IMG/VR virus record: IMGVR_UViG_3300017744_000165
Coordinates: 1-23,358 of that record
Direction: 5' to 3' (one strand)
DNA: 23,358 nt
DNA from: a virus
Shown here: piece by piece, positions 16,149 through 23,358 of the stretch
Position numbering within the stretch: position 1 is the stretch's first letter
How the letters are laid out: the number at the start of each line of letters is the position of its first letter
Translations under genes and position numbers: made by a program
The notes under the pieces: model-generated
Databases searched by the model: none
Told to the model about the DNA's origin: nothing
The model's input: only the letters and a program-made list of their open reading frames with translations

Positions 16149-19100
16149 ATGAATGAATTTTACATAGTAGACGGGAAACTATTTGAAGTTTCACCAGACA
16201 GAAAACAAGATTTTCTGCTAAAATATCCAGGAGCTAAATTAAAAAATGAACAAACAGATTTAGCAAAGACAAAAGGAACAGAAAAGGGTGTGCCTGTTCC
16301 GGAAAATGTAACACCCAATACGGAATCAAACTTGGCAGCTGGTTTTTTGGAATTCAAACTTCCAACTCCAGAAGAAATAAAAGTAAAAAATAAAACAGAA
16401 GAAGATTCTGAAGAATTAACTTTAGGTCAAGGTCTTTTAAATGAGTTTAAAAATGCTGGGGATAGATTAGGTTTAATAGATAATTTTTGGAAAGGTGATG
16501 ATCCTTCCGTACAATTAGCTTTGACAACTATGAATGAAGAGTTGTATGGAAGAAAAGGTATGAAAACACTATTAAATGCTGGAAGAGATTCTTTCAATGC
16601 TAAGGAAAGATATTTACAGTTTGAAACTGTTGAAGATTTAATAAAAGATGTCAAAGAAAAACAAGCAAGCAATAGACCTGTTTTTGCTTTAGCAGATGCT
16701 ATTACAGAAAAAGATCCAGCTAAGTTTGCTGTTGGTGTTCTTGGAACGGTAGCAAACGCTATAGCATCAGTTGCTTATGGTGTAGGTACAGGATTTACGG
16801 GTTATGGATACGAATATGCTGCTGAAAATTACATAGAATATAACGAAAGATTAGCAAAAAGAAAAAATAAAAGTTTAAAACAGTTAATATCTGATAATGA
16901 AGAGGAAACAATAATTCCTTTTTCAATAGCCGCAGGACAAGCCGGTGTGGAAAATTTAGGTTTAGGTAAAATATTAGGAAAAGTATTAAAGAAAGGTAGA
17001 AACAAAATAACTAAATATGCTTTAGATATTGCGTTTGCCGGAGGTGTTGAAGCAGGTACAGAGTGGACACAGTATGGTTTAGGAGAGTTTAATAAGCTTT
17101 TAGGTGATGGTAAAAGTAAAACAGAAGCGCTGCAGGGATCTTTATATAGAATGTTAACAGAAAAAGATGCATATGAGTCAATGTTGCGTGGTGGATTTGG
17201 TGGGGCTGGAATTAGAGGTGGTAGATATGCATTAAAAGCTTCTTATTCTGTTAGATCTACAAAAGATTCAAATGAAATACAAAAGAATATAAATGCTATT
17301 GTATACAATAAAAAAGTTAGTGCAGAAACAAAAGATGATGATGTCAAAGCAAGTGCTGAAGCTAATATAGAAATAGCTAAATCAAATGTTAAAAGGTTAA
17401 TAGACATATCTAATGACAAAATAAAAGATTTAGATGAAGAATCTCAGAAAAAAATATATGATATTAATGTTGAAACAGAAAAACAAGTATCTAAACTTAA
17501 AGATTTAAAAGAAAAATTAGATAATAATAAAATAAATAAAAAAGAATATTTAACTTATTTAGATAAGGTAAAAAAAGATTATAATATAAGTGTATTAAGA
17601 ATAAATGGAGTTTTAGCTAAAAATAGAGGTATAAACTCTTTAGTAAACAAAAGCACTAGTTTTGGATTGAAAATGGCAGAAGCTTTAAATATAAAAGCTA
17701 AAAGCTATGAAACAAACAAAGAATTTGCTAATGCTATAGGAAAAACAGAATCAGAAGCAAGTAATATAGGAGGCGCATATATAAACGGTAAAATATACTT
17801 TAATAAAGATGCGGCTAGTAAAACATTTCAAATAAATATTGGAGCTCACGAAATACTCCACCCTATTTTAAACTCTCAAATAGGTGATAGAAAACAACAA
17901 GCAAAAATAGTACAAGGTGTTAAAGAAAGATTAACATCTAGACAAGTAAGTGAACTTGACGCCATAATGGAAAGCAGAGGGTACGGTCCTGATACAGGTA
18001 AATATGATACAGAATACTTAAATGTAATGTCAGATGCACTTGCTAAAAATGAACTTTCTTTAGACAAAACAATATTAGAAAGAATAGCTCAGTTTTTTAA
18101 AAATTTATTTAAAAAATATGATATGGAAGTTGGTTTTGAAAATGCTGACCAGGTATATAATTTCTTAAGTGAGTTTAATAAATCTGCTAAAGAAAACAAA
18201 GTTTCAAAAAAAGTCTTAGAAGTTATAGACAAAGTTAAATTGAACAAAGAATTAGAAAGTAAATCTAGACAATTTTCTCAAGCAGAAAAAAATTCTATAA
18301 TTGATGATTTAGCTGGACCAAATACTAGAGAAGAAGGTTATGGTATTTCTAAAAAACAATATGAAGAAGATGGTTATATGGCTGACGCATATAACAAAAT
18401 TATAGAGGGTAACTTGATGGATCCACTTATTCTTCGTGGTATACAAGGTAATACTGTTTCTGGTAAATCTAAAGATAATTTTGTTGAAGACGTTAAAAAG
18501 GAATTAACAGATTTAATAATAAAATTTGATCCTGAACAAAACGATTCATTTTCAGGTTATTTAAATGGACAATTACAAACATGGGTAAAAAGTAAAGTTC
18601 TTAAACAATATGCACAATCTAAATCTAAAAGTTTAGACGTTGTAGCTGGAGAAGTTGGATCTGTTGCTGAACCTGGTGTAAATGAAGATTTTTCAGAGTT
18701 TGACACAAAAGAAAGTTTTGATGAAAATACTGAAAATAAAATAATACCTTCTAAAGTTTTTGGTATAGAATCTGATGTTAAAAATTCTGTTAAAAATCTA
18801 TTTCCAATGTTAACACTAGATCAAATGACTTTTGGTAGTGTTCCATTGATTGCATCTCCACATATTGCTGAAAAAGCAGGTGTACCAGTTAGTAAAATAA
18901 CAGATCCTAAAAAAAATCTAGGATCAGGAGAATTTAAAAAAGCACAAAAGTTTTTATATAAACATATAGATGATTTTATAAAACTTTTACCACCACTTAC
19001 TTCAAATAAAGAAGTAACTGATCAAAATGCAGAAGGTAAATCAGTTCAAATAGCAACTAAATTAATTAATGATGAAAAGTTTAATTTAGATCTTTATGAA

Positions 19101-22100
19101 CCAGCCGACAAAAGAGTTAAGGGTGCACAGGGTAACCCACAGTTTAAACTTCCTAATAATTTTTTATCTAACGAGTATAAAGAAAGAGTTTTAAAAACTT
19201 TTGGTATGGACTCAGAAGGTGGAGCTTTAATAACAGATGTTAGAGGAGAGATTTTAGACGGTAGAAGTCCTGAATCACAAAGAGTAAAAGGTGCCCTAGC
19301 TTTATTGTCTAAACTTACAACAAATACTGAGTTAAGAATACAAATGTTAAAAGCTGGCATAAATCCTAATGTTATAAATAATGTTGCTGCTGGTAAATCT
19401 GAATTTCAATTTAGTCAACAACCTGATAATGATATTGTTATTCCAGAGTTAACTAACATGATATTTAATAAGCATGAATATGTTAAATACACTAGAAGTT
19501 TATATGAAAACCCTGAGTTTTTAGAAGAAACAAGCAAGATATATGATATTGATTTAAATAAAGAAGATGTAAAAAATATATCCTTATATAAATATGAAAA
19601 CAATGTACAAAAATGGGATTATGAAAAACTTTTAAAATTAAAAAAATATCAATTTGAGTTTTTAAACTCAATGCCTGATTTGTTTAAAAGAGAAAGTTCT
19701 TTAGCAAGATCAGTTGCTGGATTCAATGGTTTCAATTCTTTATTTAATAACACGCTAGATCTTTACACATCAGAAAGTAAAGTTCTTGTAGACAAAAACA
19801 ATAATATAATAAGAGATGATAGAATAGAAAAAATAACCGTTTTTGATCAAGAAATAAATAAAAACATATCTACTAAAAATTTAAAATCAAATAAAAATTT
19901 ATCCAAAAATGATGTTAGTTTTATAAATGATTTAAACGATCATATAAAAAATAACAATAAAAAAATAAATACATTATATACTTTAAAAAAATTACTAAAC
20001 GATCCAACACTATTACAAGATACAAAGAAAACAGCTATACTTGATTTCAAGTCATCAAAAGCAAATGAAACAAGAAATGGTGTATATAATTTAATGAATC
20101 AATATAGGCTTGCTTTTGTTAAATCTGGAAAAAACAAAAATGAAATAAAAGAAAGGCTAATGTTTATTACTCAAAGCTTGGCTTTTGAAAATTCTTCTAT
20201 TGATGGTTTAAATAATTTATCTTCTTTAGATTTGTCTGTACTTAAAAAAGGTACTGAAAGATATTCTATACAAAACTACGACTCAAGTAGTAAAATAACT
20301 AAACAAATTTTATTTGATATAATGTCAGGTAAAGAACCTGTTGTTAGCACTAATAATTTTAAGTCAGGTATAGTACCTACAAGTATATTAGAACAAACTC
20401 CAAAACTTAGTCAAGAACAATCAATAAAGATTATTAAAAATAAAACCGATAAAAACGAACAATTAAGTCAAGTTAATTTTAATGATGAAGTAAAAACATT
20501 ACAATTAGAATCACAAATGGGTTTAATGTTATCGGCAAAAGATAAAAGATATTCTTTAGATGATGTAATTGATGTTGCAACTTCAAAAAATCTAGCTGTT
20601 AATAGAAAAAAAATGTGGAGAATAATGGATCACTCTGCAAATGATTTAGCTGGTCTTCTTTATGGTTTTCTTGGTAAAGGAAAAAAAGGAGAAAAACAAT
20701 TAGAATTTTTTACTGATAACTTAATAAAACCTTTTAGTAAAGCAGTAATGTCATTAGATATAGCAAGACAATTATCTAGCAAAAAATATAAACAGTTTTT
20801 AAAAGATAATCCTAATTTTAACAAAGACATGGAACAAGAAACTGGAATTTCTGGTTTTAACTATGATCAAGCATTAAGAATATACCTCTATACTAAAAAT
20901 GGTTCTAAAGTTCCTGGTGTTAATGATGCAACACTACAAAAAGTAAAAGGAAAAATAATAACATATCCTGGTAATAAAATGTTAAAATATGCTAGTAGTT
21001 TATCTAGTGTAATGAGACAAGATTCATATTGGATAGATCCAGATATAAATTCGTGGCAAACTGATACTATTAGACAAGATATACTTAGATCAATAGATCA
21101 ACTTTCAAGAAAAAAATTCTTAGGACCTTTTATTGAGAATAAAAATGCTATTTTTAGTGAAAACAATATAAATAAAATTAGAGCAACTTATGGTCAAAAG
21201 TTTTTAGATCCATTACAGAATATTTTAAGTAGAATGGAAACTGGAAAACTCTCAAACACAAATGATCGTTTCATGAATGGAGCATTGAATTGGGTAAGAG
21301 GTTCTGTTGCATCTACAATGTTTTTAAACACAAGAACAGCGGTACTACAAACATTATCTACTTTTAATTATATTAATTGGTCAGATAACAATGTATATAA
21401 TTTTGGTAAGGCTTTAGTAGGAAACCCTACACAATGGGCAAAAGATTTTAAATACATAATGAATTCTGATTTGTTAAAAGAAAGAAGAGGAGGTTTAAGA
21501 ACTGATGTTAACGAAGCTGAAATTGCGGACGCAATTAAGAGAAATAAAGGATTTAAAGGTGTTTTAGGTTTAGTTTTACAAAAAGGTTTTGTTTTCACTA
21601 AAGCTGGTGATGCTTTCGCTATTGCTGCAGGCGGAGCTAGTTTTTACAGAAATAGAATAAACACATACACAACAAAAGGTTTTTCAAAGGTAGAAGCAGA
21701 AAGAAAAGCTTTTATAGACTTTCAAGAGGTTACTGAAGAAACACAACAGTCTGCTAGAGCTGATAGATTATCAATGGAACAGACTAGCACCGCTGGTAAA
21801 TGGTTATTAGCATTTCAAAACACACCAATGCAGTATACTAGATTAATAGAAAAAGCTGGTTTAGATTTAATAAATGGTAGAGGTAATCCAAAAGAAAAAA
21901 TAAGTAAAATATTATATTATTCGTTTTTACAAAACATGATGTTTTCTGTATTACAACAAGGTTTATTTAGTATGTTATTTCCAGGAGAAAATGAAGATGA
22001 AGAAACAAAAAGAAATGAAAGAAAAATAGGTTATATAGCAAACAACATGGTAGATACATTAGTTAGAGGCACAGGTATTACAGGTGCTGTTTTTTCTACG

Positions 22101-22580
22101 GTAAAAAATGTTAGTAAAAAAATATATGAAGAAAACAAAAAAGTTGAGGAAGGAAAAGGACAATTTGATATAGCTGCTATATTAGCAGAATTCTTTACGG
22201 TTGGCCCTGCAATAAGTATTAAAACTAGAGATATATTTGATGCTTTAAAAGATTTTAAGTATAAAAGAAAATCTTTTGAAAAAATGGGTATATCTATAGA
22301 AAATCCTGTATTAGATATGGTAGGTAGCTCTGCTTCATTTTTTAATGTGCCTTTAGACAGGGTTGTTTCAAAAGCTAGAAACGTTAAAGATGCTTTAGAT
22401 GTTAAAACAGAAACATGGCAAAAAATAGCATTATTATCTGGTTGGAACAGGTGGACTATAAACTTTGAACCAGATGATAGTTATTACTCTGTAAAATCAA
22501 AAGGTAAAAGAAAATCAAAAAAAATTAGACAAAATAATTCTGCATCAAGCAGATATTCAAAAAGAAAAAAATATAATTAA
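16149..22580 (+). CDS. Giant multidomain virion protein with HExxH metallopeptidase domain
   Basis: 2143 residues, by far the largest gene. The N-terminal motif (FYIVDGKLFEVSPDRKQDFLLKYPGA, split here as FYIVDGKLFEV and DFLLKYPGA, residues 4-28) is one I recall at the start of large virion proteins of related phages. Residues about 190-360 are Gly/Ala-rich and hydrophobic, with possible membrane-active helices; about 405-485 is a coiled coil. A zinc-peptidase motif HEILH lies at 567-571, with the likely third ligand E622 (EYLNVMSDAL), a gluzincin-like pattern. Residues about 715-830 include a sigma-like or polyvalent-protein segment (FDPEQNDSFSGYLNGQLQTW). About 868-1075 and 1700-2000 are further conserved-looking regions, the latter (FLNTRTAVLQTLSTFNYINW, then FVFTKAGDAFAIAAGG) typical of phage 'large polyvalent proteins'. 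The C-terminus is very basic. Most likely it is packaged and ejected with the DNA, as with T7 gp16. I see no DxDxD RNA-polymerase motif. Confidence 0.7.
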   Translation: MNEFYIVDGKLFEVSPDRKQDFLLKYPGAKLKNEQTDLAKTKGTEKGVPVPENVTPNTESNLAAGFLEFKLPTPEEIKVKNKTEEDSEELTLGQGLLNEFKNAGDRLGLIDNFWKGDDPSVQLALTTMNEELYGRKGMKTLLNAGRDSFNAKERYLQFETVEDLIKDVKEKQASNRPVFALADAITEKDPAKFAVGVLGTVANAIASVAYGVGTGFTGYGYEYAAENYIEYNERLAKRKNKSLKQLISDNEEETIIPFSIAAGQAGVENLGLGKILGKVLKKGRNKITKYALDIAFAGGVEAGTEWTQYGLGEFNKLLGDGKSKTEALQGSLYRMLTEKDAYESMLRGGFGGAGIRGGRYALKASYSVRSTKDSNEIQKNINAIVYNKKVSAETKDDDVKASAEANIEIAKSNVKRLIDISNDKIKDLDEESQKKIYDINVETEKQVSKLKDLKEKLDNNKINKKEYLTYLDKVKKDYNISVLRINGVLAKNRGINSLVNKSTSFGLKMAEALNIKAKSYETNKEFANAIGKTESEASNIGGAYINGKIYFNKDAASKTFQINIGAHEILHPILNSQIGDRKQQAKIVQGVKERLTSRQVSELDAIMESRGYGPDTGKYDTEYLNVMSDALAKNELSLDKTILERIAQFFKNLFKKYDMEVGFENADQVYNFLSEFNKSAKENKVSKKVLEVIDKVKLNKELESKSRQFSQAEKNSIIDDLAGPNTREEGYGISKKQYEEDGYMADAYNKIIEGNLMDPLILRGIQGNTVSGKSKDNFVEDVKKELTDLIIKFDPEQNDSFSGYLNGQLQTWVKSKVLKQYAQSKSKSLDVVAGEVGSVAEPGVNEDFSEFDTKESFDENTENKIIPSKVFGIESDVKNSVKNLFPMLTLDQMTFGSVPLIASPHIAEKAGVPVSKITDPKKNLGSGEFKKAQKFLYKHIDDFIKLLPPLTSNKEVTDQNAEGKSVQIATKLINDEKFNLDLYEPADKRVKGAQGNPQFKLPNNFLSNEYKERVLKTFGMDSEGGALITDVRGEILDGRSPESQRVKGALALLSKLTTNTELRIQMLKAGINPNVINNVAAGKSEFQFSQQPDNDIVIPELTNMIFNKHEYVKYTRSLYENPEFLEETSKIYDIDLNKEDVKNISLYKYENNVQKWDYEKLLKLKKYQFEFLNSMPDLFKRESSLARSVAGFNGFNSLFNNTLDLYTSESKVLVDKNNNIIRDDRIEKITVFDQEINKNISTKNLKSNKNLSKNDVSFINDLNDHIKNNNKKINTLYTLKKLLNDPTLLQDTKKTAILDFKSSKANETRNGVYNLMNQYRLAFVKSGKNKNEIKERLMFITQSLAFENSSIDGLNNLSSLDLSVLKKGTERYSIQNYDSSSKITKQILFDIMSGKEPVVSTNNFKSGIVPTSILEQTPKLSQEQSIKIIKNKTDKNEQLSQVNFNDEVKTLQLESQMGLMLSAKDKRYSLDDVIDVATSKNLAVNRKKMWRIMDHSANDLAGLLYGFLGKGKKGEKQLEFFTDNLIKPFSKAVMSLDIARQLSSKKYKQFLKDNPNFNKDMEQETGISGFNYDQALRIYLYTKNGSKVPGVNDATLQKVKGKIITYPGNKMLKYASSLSSVMRQDSYWIDPDINSWQTDTIRQDILRSIDQLSRKKFLGPFIENKNAIFSENNINKIRATYGQKFLDPLQNILSRMETGKLSNTNDRFMNGALNWVRGSVASTMFLNTRTAVLQTLSTFNYINWSDNNVYNFGKALVGNPTQWAKDFKYIMNSDLLKERRGGLRTDVNEAEIADAIKRNKGFKGVLGLVLQKGFVFTKAGDAFAIAAGGASFYRNRINTYTTKGFSKVEAERKAFIDFQEVTEETQQSARADRLSMEQTSTAGKWLLAFQNTPMQYTRLIEKAGLDLINGRGNPKEKISKILYYSFLQNMMFSVLQQGLFSMLFPGENEDEETKRNERKIGYIANNMVDTLVRGTGITGAVFSTVKNVSKKIYEENKKVEEGKGQFDIAAILAEFFTVGPAISIKTRDIFDALKDFKYKRKSFEKMGISIENPVLDMVGSSASFFNVPLDRVVSKARNVKDALDVKTETWQKIALLSGWNRWTINFEPDDSYYSVKSKGKRKSKKIRQNNSASSRYSKRKKYN

Positions 22581-22582
22581 CT

Positions 22583-22747
22583 ATGGAATGGCAAGATATT
22601 AAACTAATGGCCTTCAATGGCACAACACTAACACTTTCCATGACAGAGATGGAAACAATATTAAAAATAGTACTGTTGTTAGTTTCTATAGGTTTTACAA
22701 TAGCACGATGGTATGACATACATAAAAAAAATAAAGCTAATAAGTAG
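22583..22747 (+). CDS. Small single-span membrane protein (54 residues), possible holin or anchor
   Basis: Starts two bases after the giant gene. A polar N-terminal half of about 25 residues (MEWQDIKLMAFNG...) precedes one hydrophobic span at about 26-41 (ILKIVLLLVSIGFTIA) and a short positively charged tail (RWYDIHKKNKANK). By the positive-inside rule the N-terminus would face outward and the tail the cytoplasm. Its last 35 bases overlap the start of the next gene in another frame. It ends in TAG. Small one-span proteins at the end of late operons are often holins or spanin-like lysis proteins, but no endolysin is visible in this window, so this is only a suggestion. The gene itself is supported by tight packing and amino-acid pattern. 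Confidence 0.65.
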   Translation: MEWQDIKLMAFNGTTLTLSMTEMETILKIVLLLVSIGFTIARWYDIHKKNKANK

Positions 22748-23177
22748 CTTATTGTTTTGTGTTATATCCACAGCTCAAGAAATAAAAATACAAGATATAA
22801 AAAACTCTATACAAACCGGACCTTTAGTAGGAAACCGCAATGTAGGGTTTGGTATGAAGAACATATTAGAAGAATTGGTTCAAGACTACGATTATAACTT
22901 AAATGACAAAAGTAATAATGTGTTGGTTGTTGAGCTAATTTATTTTGATGTAAAAAGAACTCAATCAAGTATTGCGTTGTATAGCAAATCATCAAGTCAA
23001 ACTGAAATAATTGCCGTAGCTAAATACAAAAAGAAAAAAGTAAAAGTAAAGGGTACGTCAAAAGATATAACTACATCTTTAATTTTATTAAATGAACAAG
23101 GAAAGTTTACACAAAACAGTGTTAGCGTTGCATTAAAAAAATTATCTGAAAACATTATTAAGAAATTAAAATTATGA
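22713..23177 (+). CDS. Secreted small protein, CsgG-like type
   Basis: 154 residues. An N-terminal signal peptide is clear: basic start (MTYIKKIK), hydrophobic core (LISSLLFCVIS) and probable cleavage before Gln in TAQE, a frequent Bacteroidetes form. The cysteine at 16 has Phe before it, so the lipobox is poor and a lipoprotein is unlikely. The mature part (GPLVGNRNVGFGMKNILEEL; VLVVELIYFDVKRTQ; EIIAVAKYKKKKVKVKG; a final helix SVALKKLSENIIKKL) alternates strands and helices. It recalls the small proteins annotated as CsgG-like (curli export) in marine phages; those are remembered cases, not a search. It would act in the periplasm or outer membrane of the host. It overlaps the 54-residue gene by 35 bases and the next gene by 4 bases (ATGA), so translation is probably coupled. 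Confidence 0.62.
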   Translation: MTYIKKIKLISSLLFCVISTAQEIKIQDIKNSIQTGPLVGNRNVGFGMKNILEELVQDYDYNLNDKSNNVLVVELIYFDVKRTQSSIALYSKSSSQTEIIAVAKYKKKKVKVKGTSKDITTSLILLNEQGKFTQNSVSVALKKLSENIIKKLKL

Positions 23178-23358
23178 GAAAACTGTTGTTTTTGTTACTA
23201 CCATTATTCTGTTTAGCGCAAGATTTAAAACTTGATCACAGTTATATTAACGAAGCTGATTTTCAGGTAGGTGATACTATAACTATAAAGTTTAATACAA
23301 TACAGGTTACAGAGGGTGCTGATCCAAACCTGTACATGTTTGACTACGAATATAACAA
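23174..23358 (+). CDS. Secreted protein with beta-rich start, 3'-truncated by the window end
   Basis: About 61 codons are visible with no stop. The start overlaps the preceding stop as ATGA. A short, clean signal peptide (MRKLLFLLLPLFCLAQ) has probable cleavage after Ala or Gln at 15-16. The mature start (SYINEADFQVGDTITIKFNT, then NLYMFDYEYN) alternates hydrophobic and polar residues like an Ig-like beta domain. I recall similar openings in exported phage proteins of marine flavobacterial viruses but cannot name a family. Being coupled to the CsgG-like gene, it probably belongs to the same envelope-directed cassette. The full length and function lie beyond the window. Confidence 0.6.
   Translation, partial: MRKLLFLLLPLFCLAQDLKLDHSYINEADFQVGDTITIKFNTIQVTEGADPNLYMFDYEYN

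Follow-up and report, generated by a model that had tools for sequence, protein, structure and literature searches.

The three overlapping genes at the end of the window (by which we mean the whole stretch of DNA analysed, a complete IMG/VR record of 23,358 nt) appear from comparison with their relatives to be the cut-off front of a longer operon. The second and third of them, B and C, match the first two genes of a six-gene cassette, B-C-D-E-F-G, which is frequent in virus contigs and almost absent from the bacterial genomes searched, and which we regard as largely phage-specific. We propose that the cassette is a surface-display module of infected flavobacteria, with adhesion as its most likely use, a reading to which we give about an even chance.

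The window contains terminase, portal and capsid genes related to those of the Flavobacterium elemo phages, Cellulophaga phages, Maribacter phage Panino and MW202828. A 2143-aa gene (16149-22580) lies directly upstream of A, and A, B and C follow on the + strand. A (22583-22747) encodes 54 aa with one hydrophobic span, in keeping with the one-span membrane protein described in the earlier note. B (22713-23177) encodes 154 aa and is predicted to be exported. C (23174-23358) is cut by the end of the record, which leaves the first 61 aa (codons to 23356), including the signal peptide, of a protein that is 539-541 aa long in close relatives. The overlaps that had been noticed from the sequence, 35 nt between A and B (22713-22747, + strand) and then a 4-nt ATGA stop/start between B and C (23174-23177, + strand), are confirmed at these coordinates and conserved among 16 close relatives. 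The A frame ends 35 nt inside B in all 16 close IMG/VR loci found with B, when B is counted from the start that matches the window's (an earlier ATG in L010, L011 and L013 gives 47 nt), and the 4-nt overlap is kept in all 13 of these loci whose DNA extends beyond B. In a wider set of 87 loci, with the first start codon used, A overlaps B in 16 of 16 A-bearing loci (by 35 nt in seven), and the B/C spacing is -4 nt in 50 of 79. Both overlaps are kept more than expected by chance.

In those close relatives that are long enough, C is followed by D (119 aa), E (74-83 aa), F (239 aa) and G (443-494 aa), and G by an M15 endolysin, H (Pfam 2.9e-16 in L001), with a lipoprotein, I, in some; in L005 both C and F are fragmented. 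We then counted each family with its own profile across the 87 loci (85 IMG/VR contigs, Flavobacterium phage immuto and one MAG contig), and found F in 87, G in 85, C in 83, B in 80, E in 79, D in 69, A in 16, H in 13 and I in five; because the profiles were extended on these same loci, which had been chosen by F, the counts describe the relatives found and are not an independent test. B, C, F and G occur together in 78 of the 87 loci and all six cassette genes in 60, several of the incomplete loci being contigs cut inside the cassette. The joint function that had been suggested for the trio therefore needs a different unit: B and C are indeed co-conserved with other genes, but A-B-C is the wrong grouping, since A is present in only 16 loci and it is D, E, F and G that accompany B and C more constantly. 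The outcome that the earlier note named as refuting, related genomes in which the genes do not occur together, is not what was seen for B and C, as B is followed by C in 79 of the 87 loci, although in immuto the two stand apart and in another order. The placement of the genes at the end of a virion operon fares similarly; it fits the window's lineage, but a relative of the upstream 2143-aa gene was seen in only 14 of the 87 loci (in fetched DNA of up to 10 kb on either side of F, less on short contigs), and the cassette is thus not tied to the window's virion operon.

By its distribution, A is a lineage-specific neighbour of the cassette and not part of its core. It has no Pfam match, its PHROG match is a weak one to a holin family (phrog_920, E 0.054), and a crude signal-peptide rule called none of the 16 A proteins. 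A gene of 91 to 99 aa stands immediately 5' of A in 11 of the 16 close relatives (L003-L008, L010-L013 and L016), the copy in L006 (5594-5869) being a DUF5872 protein (E 1.6e-14); L009 has a different 87-aa gene there, and in the window and in four others this place is taken by the end of the 2143-aa gene. The closest terminase relative, MW202828.1 (L017, 63% identity), is annotated with GroEL and a 10-kd chaperonin upstream of its packaging genes.

The cassette is arranged differently in immuto, where B, C, E, F and G all have relatives. The order there is lectin protein gp013, gp014, cohesin protein gp015, gp016 (E), gp017 (F), gp018 (G) and gp019 (B), beside nucleotide-metabolism genes and with no virion gene annotated in the 29 kb covered. 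The most divergent relative of the cassette is on a 9.2-kb Flavobacteriales contig (L135), where a protein with cohesin and sorting domain (both under the Pfam cut-off) comes first, then a barrel-like protein that looks like PorQ, then a lipoprotein-type F, and after it G and B; the PorQ likeness and the assignments of B and G were made by eye.

The distribution of the cassette was followed through F. A first scan of IMG/VR contigs gave 36 loci; with a broader F alignment, 562 IMG/VR stretches were matched, of which 553 encode an F relative and the best 80 of these 553 were kept, and a like scan of 84,980 bacterial and archaeal species, with one genome per species, matched 44 stretches and yielded a single F relative. 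The patterns of the viral and host-genome scans differ by one residue, and because these scans rest on short patterns their counts are lower bounds in which near-copies are still included. A profile search of 395 Flavobacteriales genomes found F in two and B in one, the two F matches being the MAG of L056 (12.6-kb contig) and the L135 contig. A host origin of the cassette was considered and rejected on these counts of 2/395 and 1/395. Among isolated phages, tblastn of F matched four records, all of them immuto (49% identity); none of these four belongs to the 87 records that share a related terminase, in which the 68 Flavobacterium records come from a different host strain. The same search with B, C and G at E ≤ 1 gave no match to isolated phages, which says little, because the immuto relatives missed in this way were found by profiles.

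Export is predicted for most of the cassette. The crude signal-peptide rule called 71 of 80 B proteins, 90 of 100 C, 75 of 75 D, 52 of 79 E, 81 of 88 F and 87 of 87 G, against 100 of the 752 remaining ORFs of these loci that are 150 aa or longer and none of the window's 12 upstream genes (11 of which are informative, the terminase being without its N-terminus). The window's own B and C are both called, so that the signal peptides reported for them, and with these the idea of envelope-directed export, are supported as a prediction. The calls for E probably reflect its membrane span; E is a one-span, charge-rich protein (for example L020:4699-4929) with a fixed C-terminal Trp (79/79). D has a lipobox in 72 of 75 proteins by one rule and in 63 of 75 by another, and 45 of the 72 lipobox D proteins have at least two acidic residues at +2 to +6, as do 3 of the 60 lipobox ORFs in these loci that are not D. 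The relevant passage of PMC5080379 describes acidic residues placed in this way as part of the Bacteroidetes surface-export signal of lipoproteins. The D tails are weaker in the window's lineage (for example CTTEVYNE). A lipobox was found in 6 of 80 B and 4 of 88 F proteins.

G has the look of a barrel of the outer membrane. Such barrels tend to end in a Phe/Leu-type residue, and the C-terminal residue of G is Phe or Leu in 82 of 87 proteins. The protein (for example L042:10681-12558) has an N-terminal part with invariant Cys residues, a barrel-like C-terminal part, and between them a tract in which Ser, Thr, Asp or Glu abound and whose length and composition vary greatly. It was mostly this low-complexity tract that matched when the G profile was run against the PDB; the barrel part gave one match, 4qdy, at E 0.022.

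The model predicts that B takes the CsgG/PelC/LptE/TraT fold, a fold group that points to no single function. The AlphaFold model (23 sequences) has a pLDDT of 74.9 and is weak at 13-17, 84-93 and 119-123. By VIA-align its neighbours are an LPHT ring (Z 11.8), FlgT (11.4), PelC (11.0), CsgG 6lqh (10.9), TraT (10.1) and LptE (9.6), and the rows with Z of at least 9.0 align 104-137 residues at rmsd 2.3-5.9; the margin is one to three Z units, since ribosome-hibernation factors, unrelated and of other function, reach 8.2-8.8. Foldseek puts Cj1090c, HpaA and LptE-type proteins in its best rows and CsgG at rank 40 (E 4.9e-3), and its viral library gives one row at E ≤ 0.001, a ribosome-hibernation-type protein. 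The sequence searches gave less. The window's B (19.0 bits) and that of L001 (22.1 bits) fall under the 25-bit gathering score of YajG (PF03923), a family hit at E ≤ 0.1 by 18 of 23 B family members (best 4.6e-6, with no bit score given), and the PDB matches of the B profile, none better than E 0.034, were confined to PP2A repeats and a single ribosomal protein. A sequence kinship of B with CsgG was tried and rejected, the E-value of 0.031 lying inside the permuted controls (best 0.0043), and a host CsgE-like profile gives B at E 0.017 only, which we treat as a weak lead. Neither B against F nor either of them against host CsgG gave anything usable in hhalign, where the alignments are shallow (Neff ~2).

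F, on the other hand, is a good but not final candidate for a remote relative of CsgG. A host CsgG profile made from 11 CsgG-like Flavobacteriales proteins, with signal peptides removed, was run on the 1654 ORFs of the loci and placed F proteins at ranks 1-13 (best E 2.8e-6), with a match that is collinear across most of the domain. Among 40 column-permuted CsgG profiles the best E-value for F was 0.021 (median 4.7) and the best for any other ORF 6.1e-4, the reversed profile gave F at 1.3 at best, and four other host families gave 0.21 to 11. The clustering of F in the ranks means little by itself, because one permuted profile likewise had 10 F proteins in its top 15; it is the E-value that carries the argument, and as the F proteins are related to each other it amounts in effect to one comparison. 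In the reverse direction, the F profile run on 90 host ORFs had as its top three L114 (2.2e-4), L113 (0.017) and L115 (0.042), which are loci fetched for a CsgG-Pfam match, and the seven classical CsgG proteins (L106-L112) were absent from its best seven rows. The Pfam CsgG family (PF03783) was not matched by any of 25 F members at E ≤ 1 or by any of four F-carrying virus records at E ≤ 10, the F profile had no PDB match at E ≤ 10, and the AlphaFold model of F (pLDDT 42.9) has no usable fold. A lipoprotein signal, which is a CsgG trait, is mostly absent from F (four of 88). CsgG has two membrane-crossing beta-hairpins and forms a nine-fold pore; by a crude amphipathicity score the first hairpin of F is similar to that of CsgG and the second is lower and more polar, and any pore formed by F must be called putative. 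The resemblance to CsgG that the earlier note saw in the window is accordingly divided: structure prediction, with CsgG and LptE among the folds compared, upholds it for B, the sequence of B does not, and the better CsgG relative is F, which lies beyond the window and whose own model is of low confidence.

The cargo-like protein of the cassette is C. Among 24 C members, Pfam matches at E ≤ 0.01 were to Cohesin (12), a T9SS tail (five), Lectin_C (two) and PA14 (one). The Cohesin (PF00963) cut-off of 24.1 bits is passed in immuto (36.7) and L083 (26.5); the T9SS type A sorting domain (PF18962, cut-off 27 bits) scores 34.6 in immuto gp015, which therefore has both domains above their Pfam cut-offs, but only 22.0 in L051, and it was not seen in the C proteins of the window's lineage. 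An iterated profile started from window-lineage C finds gp015 at 8e-19. Against the PDB, the C family profile matched a scaffoldin cohesin (E 3.9e-6), a dockerin (0.018) and an FN3 domain (0.031), in the order FN3, dockerin, cohesin, although for dockerin and FN3 no individual stretch of the match clears the threshold by itself. For the window-lineage C proteins themselves, Pfam gave no cohesin at E ≤ 1 and an eight-sequence profile no PDB cohesin at E ≤ 10, and we call a part of them cohesin-like through alignment with relatives in the family profile only. Dockerin_1 (PF00404, cut-off 22.9 bits) stayed below its cut-off in every protein scanned (best 15.3, in L102), and no catalytic domain was called in the C proteins scanned. 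The idea that the N-terminal half of C is hypervariable was dropped, its mean identity being 0.34 against 0.36 for the cohesin part (with five of 24 rows left out).

D is predicted to be a lipoprotein, often with a surface-export-type N-terminus, that resembles a T9SS sorting domain: at E ≤ 0.01, seven of 17 members match a T9SS tail family (best 5.6e-6) and nine of 17 match DUF3244. D and the fused sorting domain replace one another. Using a sorting-domain profile that was seeded from the nine fused loci and then run over all ORFs, we find that the 83 loci with C comprise 69 with D, five with a divergent D-like gene and nine in which a sorting domain is fused to C, and none with D and the fused domain together. 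On the F tree the fused state requires at least three changes, where two of the loci labelled as fused, L135 (tail below the Pfam cut-off) and immuto, sit on long branches. Nothing else in the data points as strongly to joint work of C and D at the surface as this exchange, which also suggests that one and the same anchoring role can be filled by a surface lipoprotein or by T9SS cargo. In six loci (L071, L083, L084, L102, L104 and L105) C and D are each duplicated in the order C1-C2-D1-D2, which suggests that C and D pair off; Lectin_C was matched in the three C2 copies scanned, those of L071 (below the cut-off), L083 and L102.

Seven of the nine fused loci also have a second C-like gene adjoining G, with dockerin-like loops and no cohesin. 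Lectin_C is present in this second gene of L054 and, below the cut-off, in that of L098; immuto gp013 has a lectin and a dockerin-like loop; and in L051, the ninth fused locus, the second gene is cut by the contig end. These second genes suggest that a cohesin-bearing anchor pairs with a dockerin-bearing binder. In the window's lineage a single protein has both parts, so that C could pair within itself or head to tail.

Starting from what was computed, namely the gene order, the signal peptides by the crude rule, the predicted fold of B, the domain matches and the exchange between D and the sorting domain, we envisage that B-G would equip infected flavobacteria with an outer-membrane apparatus for surface display. 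C, with its N-terminal part and its FN3-like, dockerin-like and cohesin-like parts, would be exported by Sec and held on the cell surface by D, the surface lipoprotein resembling a sorting domain, and where D is missing C would be anchored by its own T9SS sorting domain. B and F, both of CsgG/PelC type, would form the envelope part together with G, the presumed barrel with its long disordered tract, possibly as a ring or pore, and E would be the inner-membrane part. Infected cells and their remains might then become sticky through lectin, PA14 or cohesin-dockerin contacts. A more ambitious version, which we offer only tentatively and think doubtful as it stands, is that Bacteroidota phages carry their own extracellular assembly system, in which a CsgG-type envelope set and secreted cohesin/dockerin proteins with a T9SS-type or lipoprotein anchor give infected cells and debris a coat or fibre of cohesin-dockerin type and so keep sibling hosts or particles close.

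A possible objection to the display reading is that the cassette serves lysis, with B, F and G as an outer-membrane ring or channel and E, together with A or another small membrane protein, as the inner-membrane part, so that the envelope is weakened late in infection. In 48 of the 87 loci, endolysin-type families (Amidase_2, PG_binding with Amidase_2, and M15) are found in the cassette or no more than 3 kb from its end, and the number rises to 73 if two small membrane-protein families are added, one of them without Pfam match and the other just under the Phage_holin_4_1 cut-off (BLAST was used to sort the neighbours into families, and a single member of each went through Pfam). This neighbourhood points to late expression and keeps the lysis reading alive, and a similar role has been proposed, in the part of PMC9004378 that treats it, for CsgGF of methylophage Melnitz. 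Lysis would however leave the lectin, PA14, cohesin and sorting domains unexplained, the second hairpin of F is polar, the annotated endolysin of immuto starts ~6 kb beyond its cassette, and separate spanin-like genes are seen by eye beside some cassettes; we consider this use unlikely. A non-specific DNA/RNA endonuclease is another neighbour, its family (Endonuclease_NS) occurring in the DNA of 28 loci and within 3 kb of the cassette in 20 (for example L094:10708-11334, PF01223 E 2.6e-33, with a signal-like N-terminus by eye), and immuto gp012 is one too.

Superinfection exclusion, in which the displayed proteins would mask or occupy receptors of the infected cell much like the TraT lipoprotein ring in plasmid surface exclusion, seems to us just as improbable as lysis. 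It is true that phages commonly have exclusion proteins whose place of action is the outer membrane, that B shares the TraT fold (alongside many other families), and that a lipoprotein with a surface-export-type tail and the ligand-binding modules of the C relatives would suit receptor blocking. Exclusion factors are usually one small gene, however, whereas here there are six genes and a multi-domain secreted protein; the lectin and PA14/GLEYA parts point outward and not at the cell's own receptor; and the window-lineage cassette follows virion genes and is probably expressed late, when exclusion would be least useful. It is far less probable again that the proteins are virion parts that join the particles and that their N-terminal hydrophobic stretches are not signal peptides. 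The window-lineage genes do directly follow a run of virion-type genes, but the high signal-peptide calls in B, C, D, F and G, set beside those of the window's upstream genes and the other ORFs, and the lipobox of D speak against it, as does the rarity of the upstream virion-type neighbour (14 of 87 loci). We retain surface display, with adhesion, as the best explanation.

Several known systems resemble the cassette in part. The type VIII (curli) clusters of pelagiphages, for which aggregation ('sibling capture'), exclusion or uptake have been proposed (PMC7029224 and PMC9599517, in the sections on these clusters), are likewise multi-gene outer-membrane export sets of marine phages, with a CsgG-type protein, that are shared between phage families. 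There CsgG and CsgF are recognised and CsgA/B repeats reported (in the relevant part of PMC9599517), whereas F escapes detection by Pfam and the protein that resembles a cargo is made up of cohesin, dockerin-like and lectin parts. Neither curlin nor CsgF nor CsgE was seen by Pfam among the B-G proteins of L001 and immuto or in the B, C, D and F alignments, and in view of these curli partners and of the Pfam CsgG result we do not assign the cassette to the curli system. Melnitz also has a CsgG-type gene, whose CsgGF was proposed as a lysis pore, with a part in lysis timing suggested from gene order; in the passage concerned (PMC9004378) it is CsgG and CsgF only, whereas here six genes are co-conserved and include a secreted modular protein. 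Cryophage genes for T9SS cargo, proposed to change the host surface, offer phage-encoded T9SS type A sorting domains and one protein with PA14, but they are three variable genes, and the passages describing them (PMC7468147) mention no outer-membrane set and no lipoprotein replacing the sorting domain. B shares its predicted fold with PelC, CsgG, LptE, TraT and FlgT, outer-membrane ring or plug proteins, but most B proteins are without a lipobox and no sequence family membership was found. Cellulosome scaffolds share with the C family a cohesin, seen by Pfam and by the PDB profile, but C is phage-encoded, its dockerin is sub-threshold and no catalytic domain is called in it; no report of cohesin or dockerin proteins in phages was among the literature matches listed, in which subscription journals are thinly covered. 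As far as those passages go, then, the cassette shares ideas with the curli, Melnitz and Cryophage systems and matches none of them in content. Phage-encoded outer-membrane export has precedents in phages of SAR11 and OM43, in which there is dispute about what it is used for; the present case is a differently built export set in flavobacterial phages, whose domain content points to adhesion and whose B, C, E, F and G relatives in an isolated phage species (immuto, four records) make the question one that can be tested at the bench.
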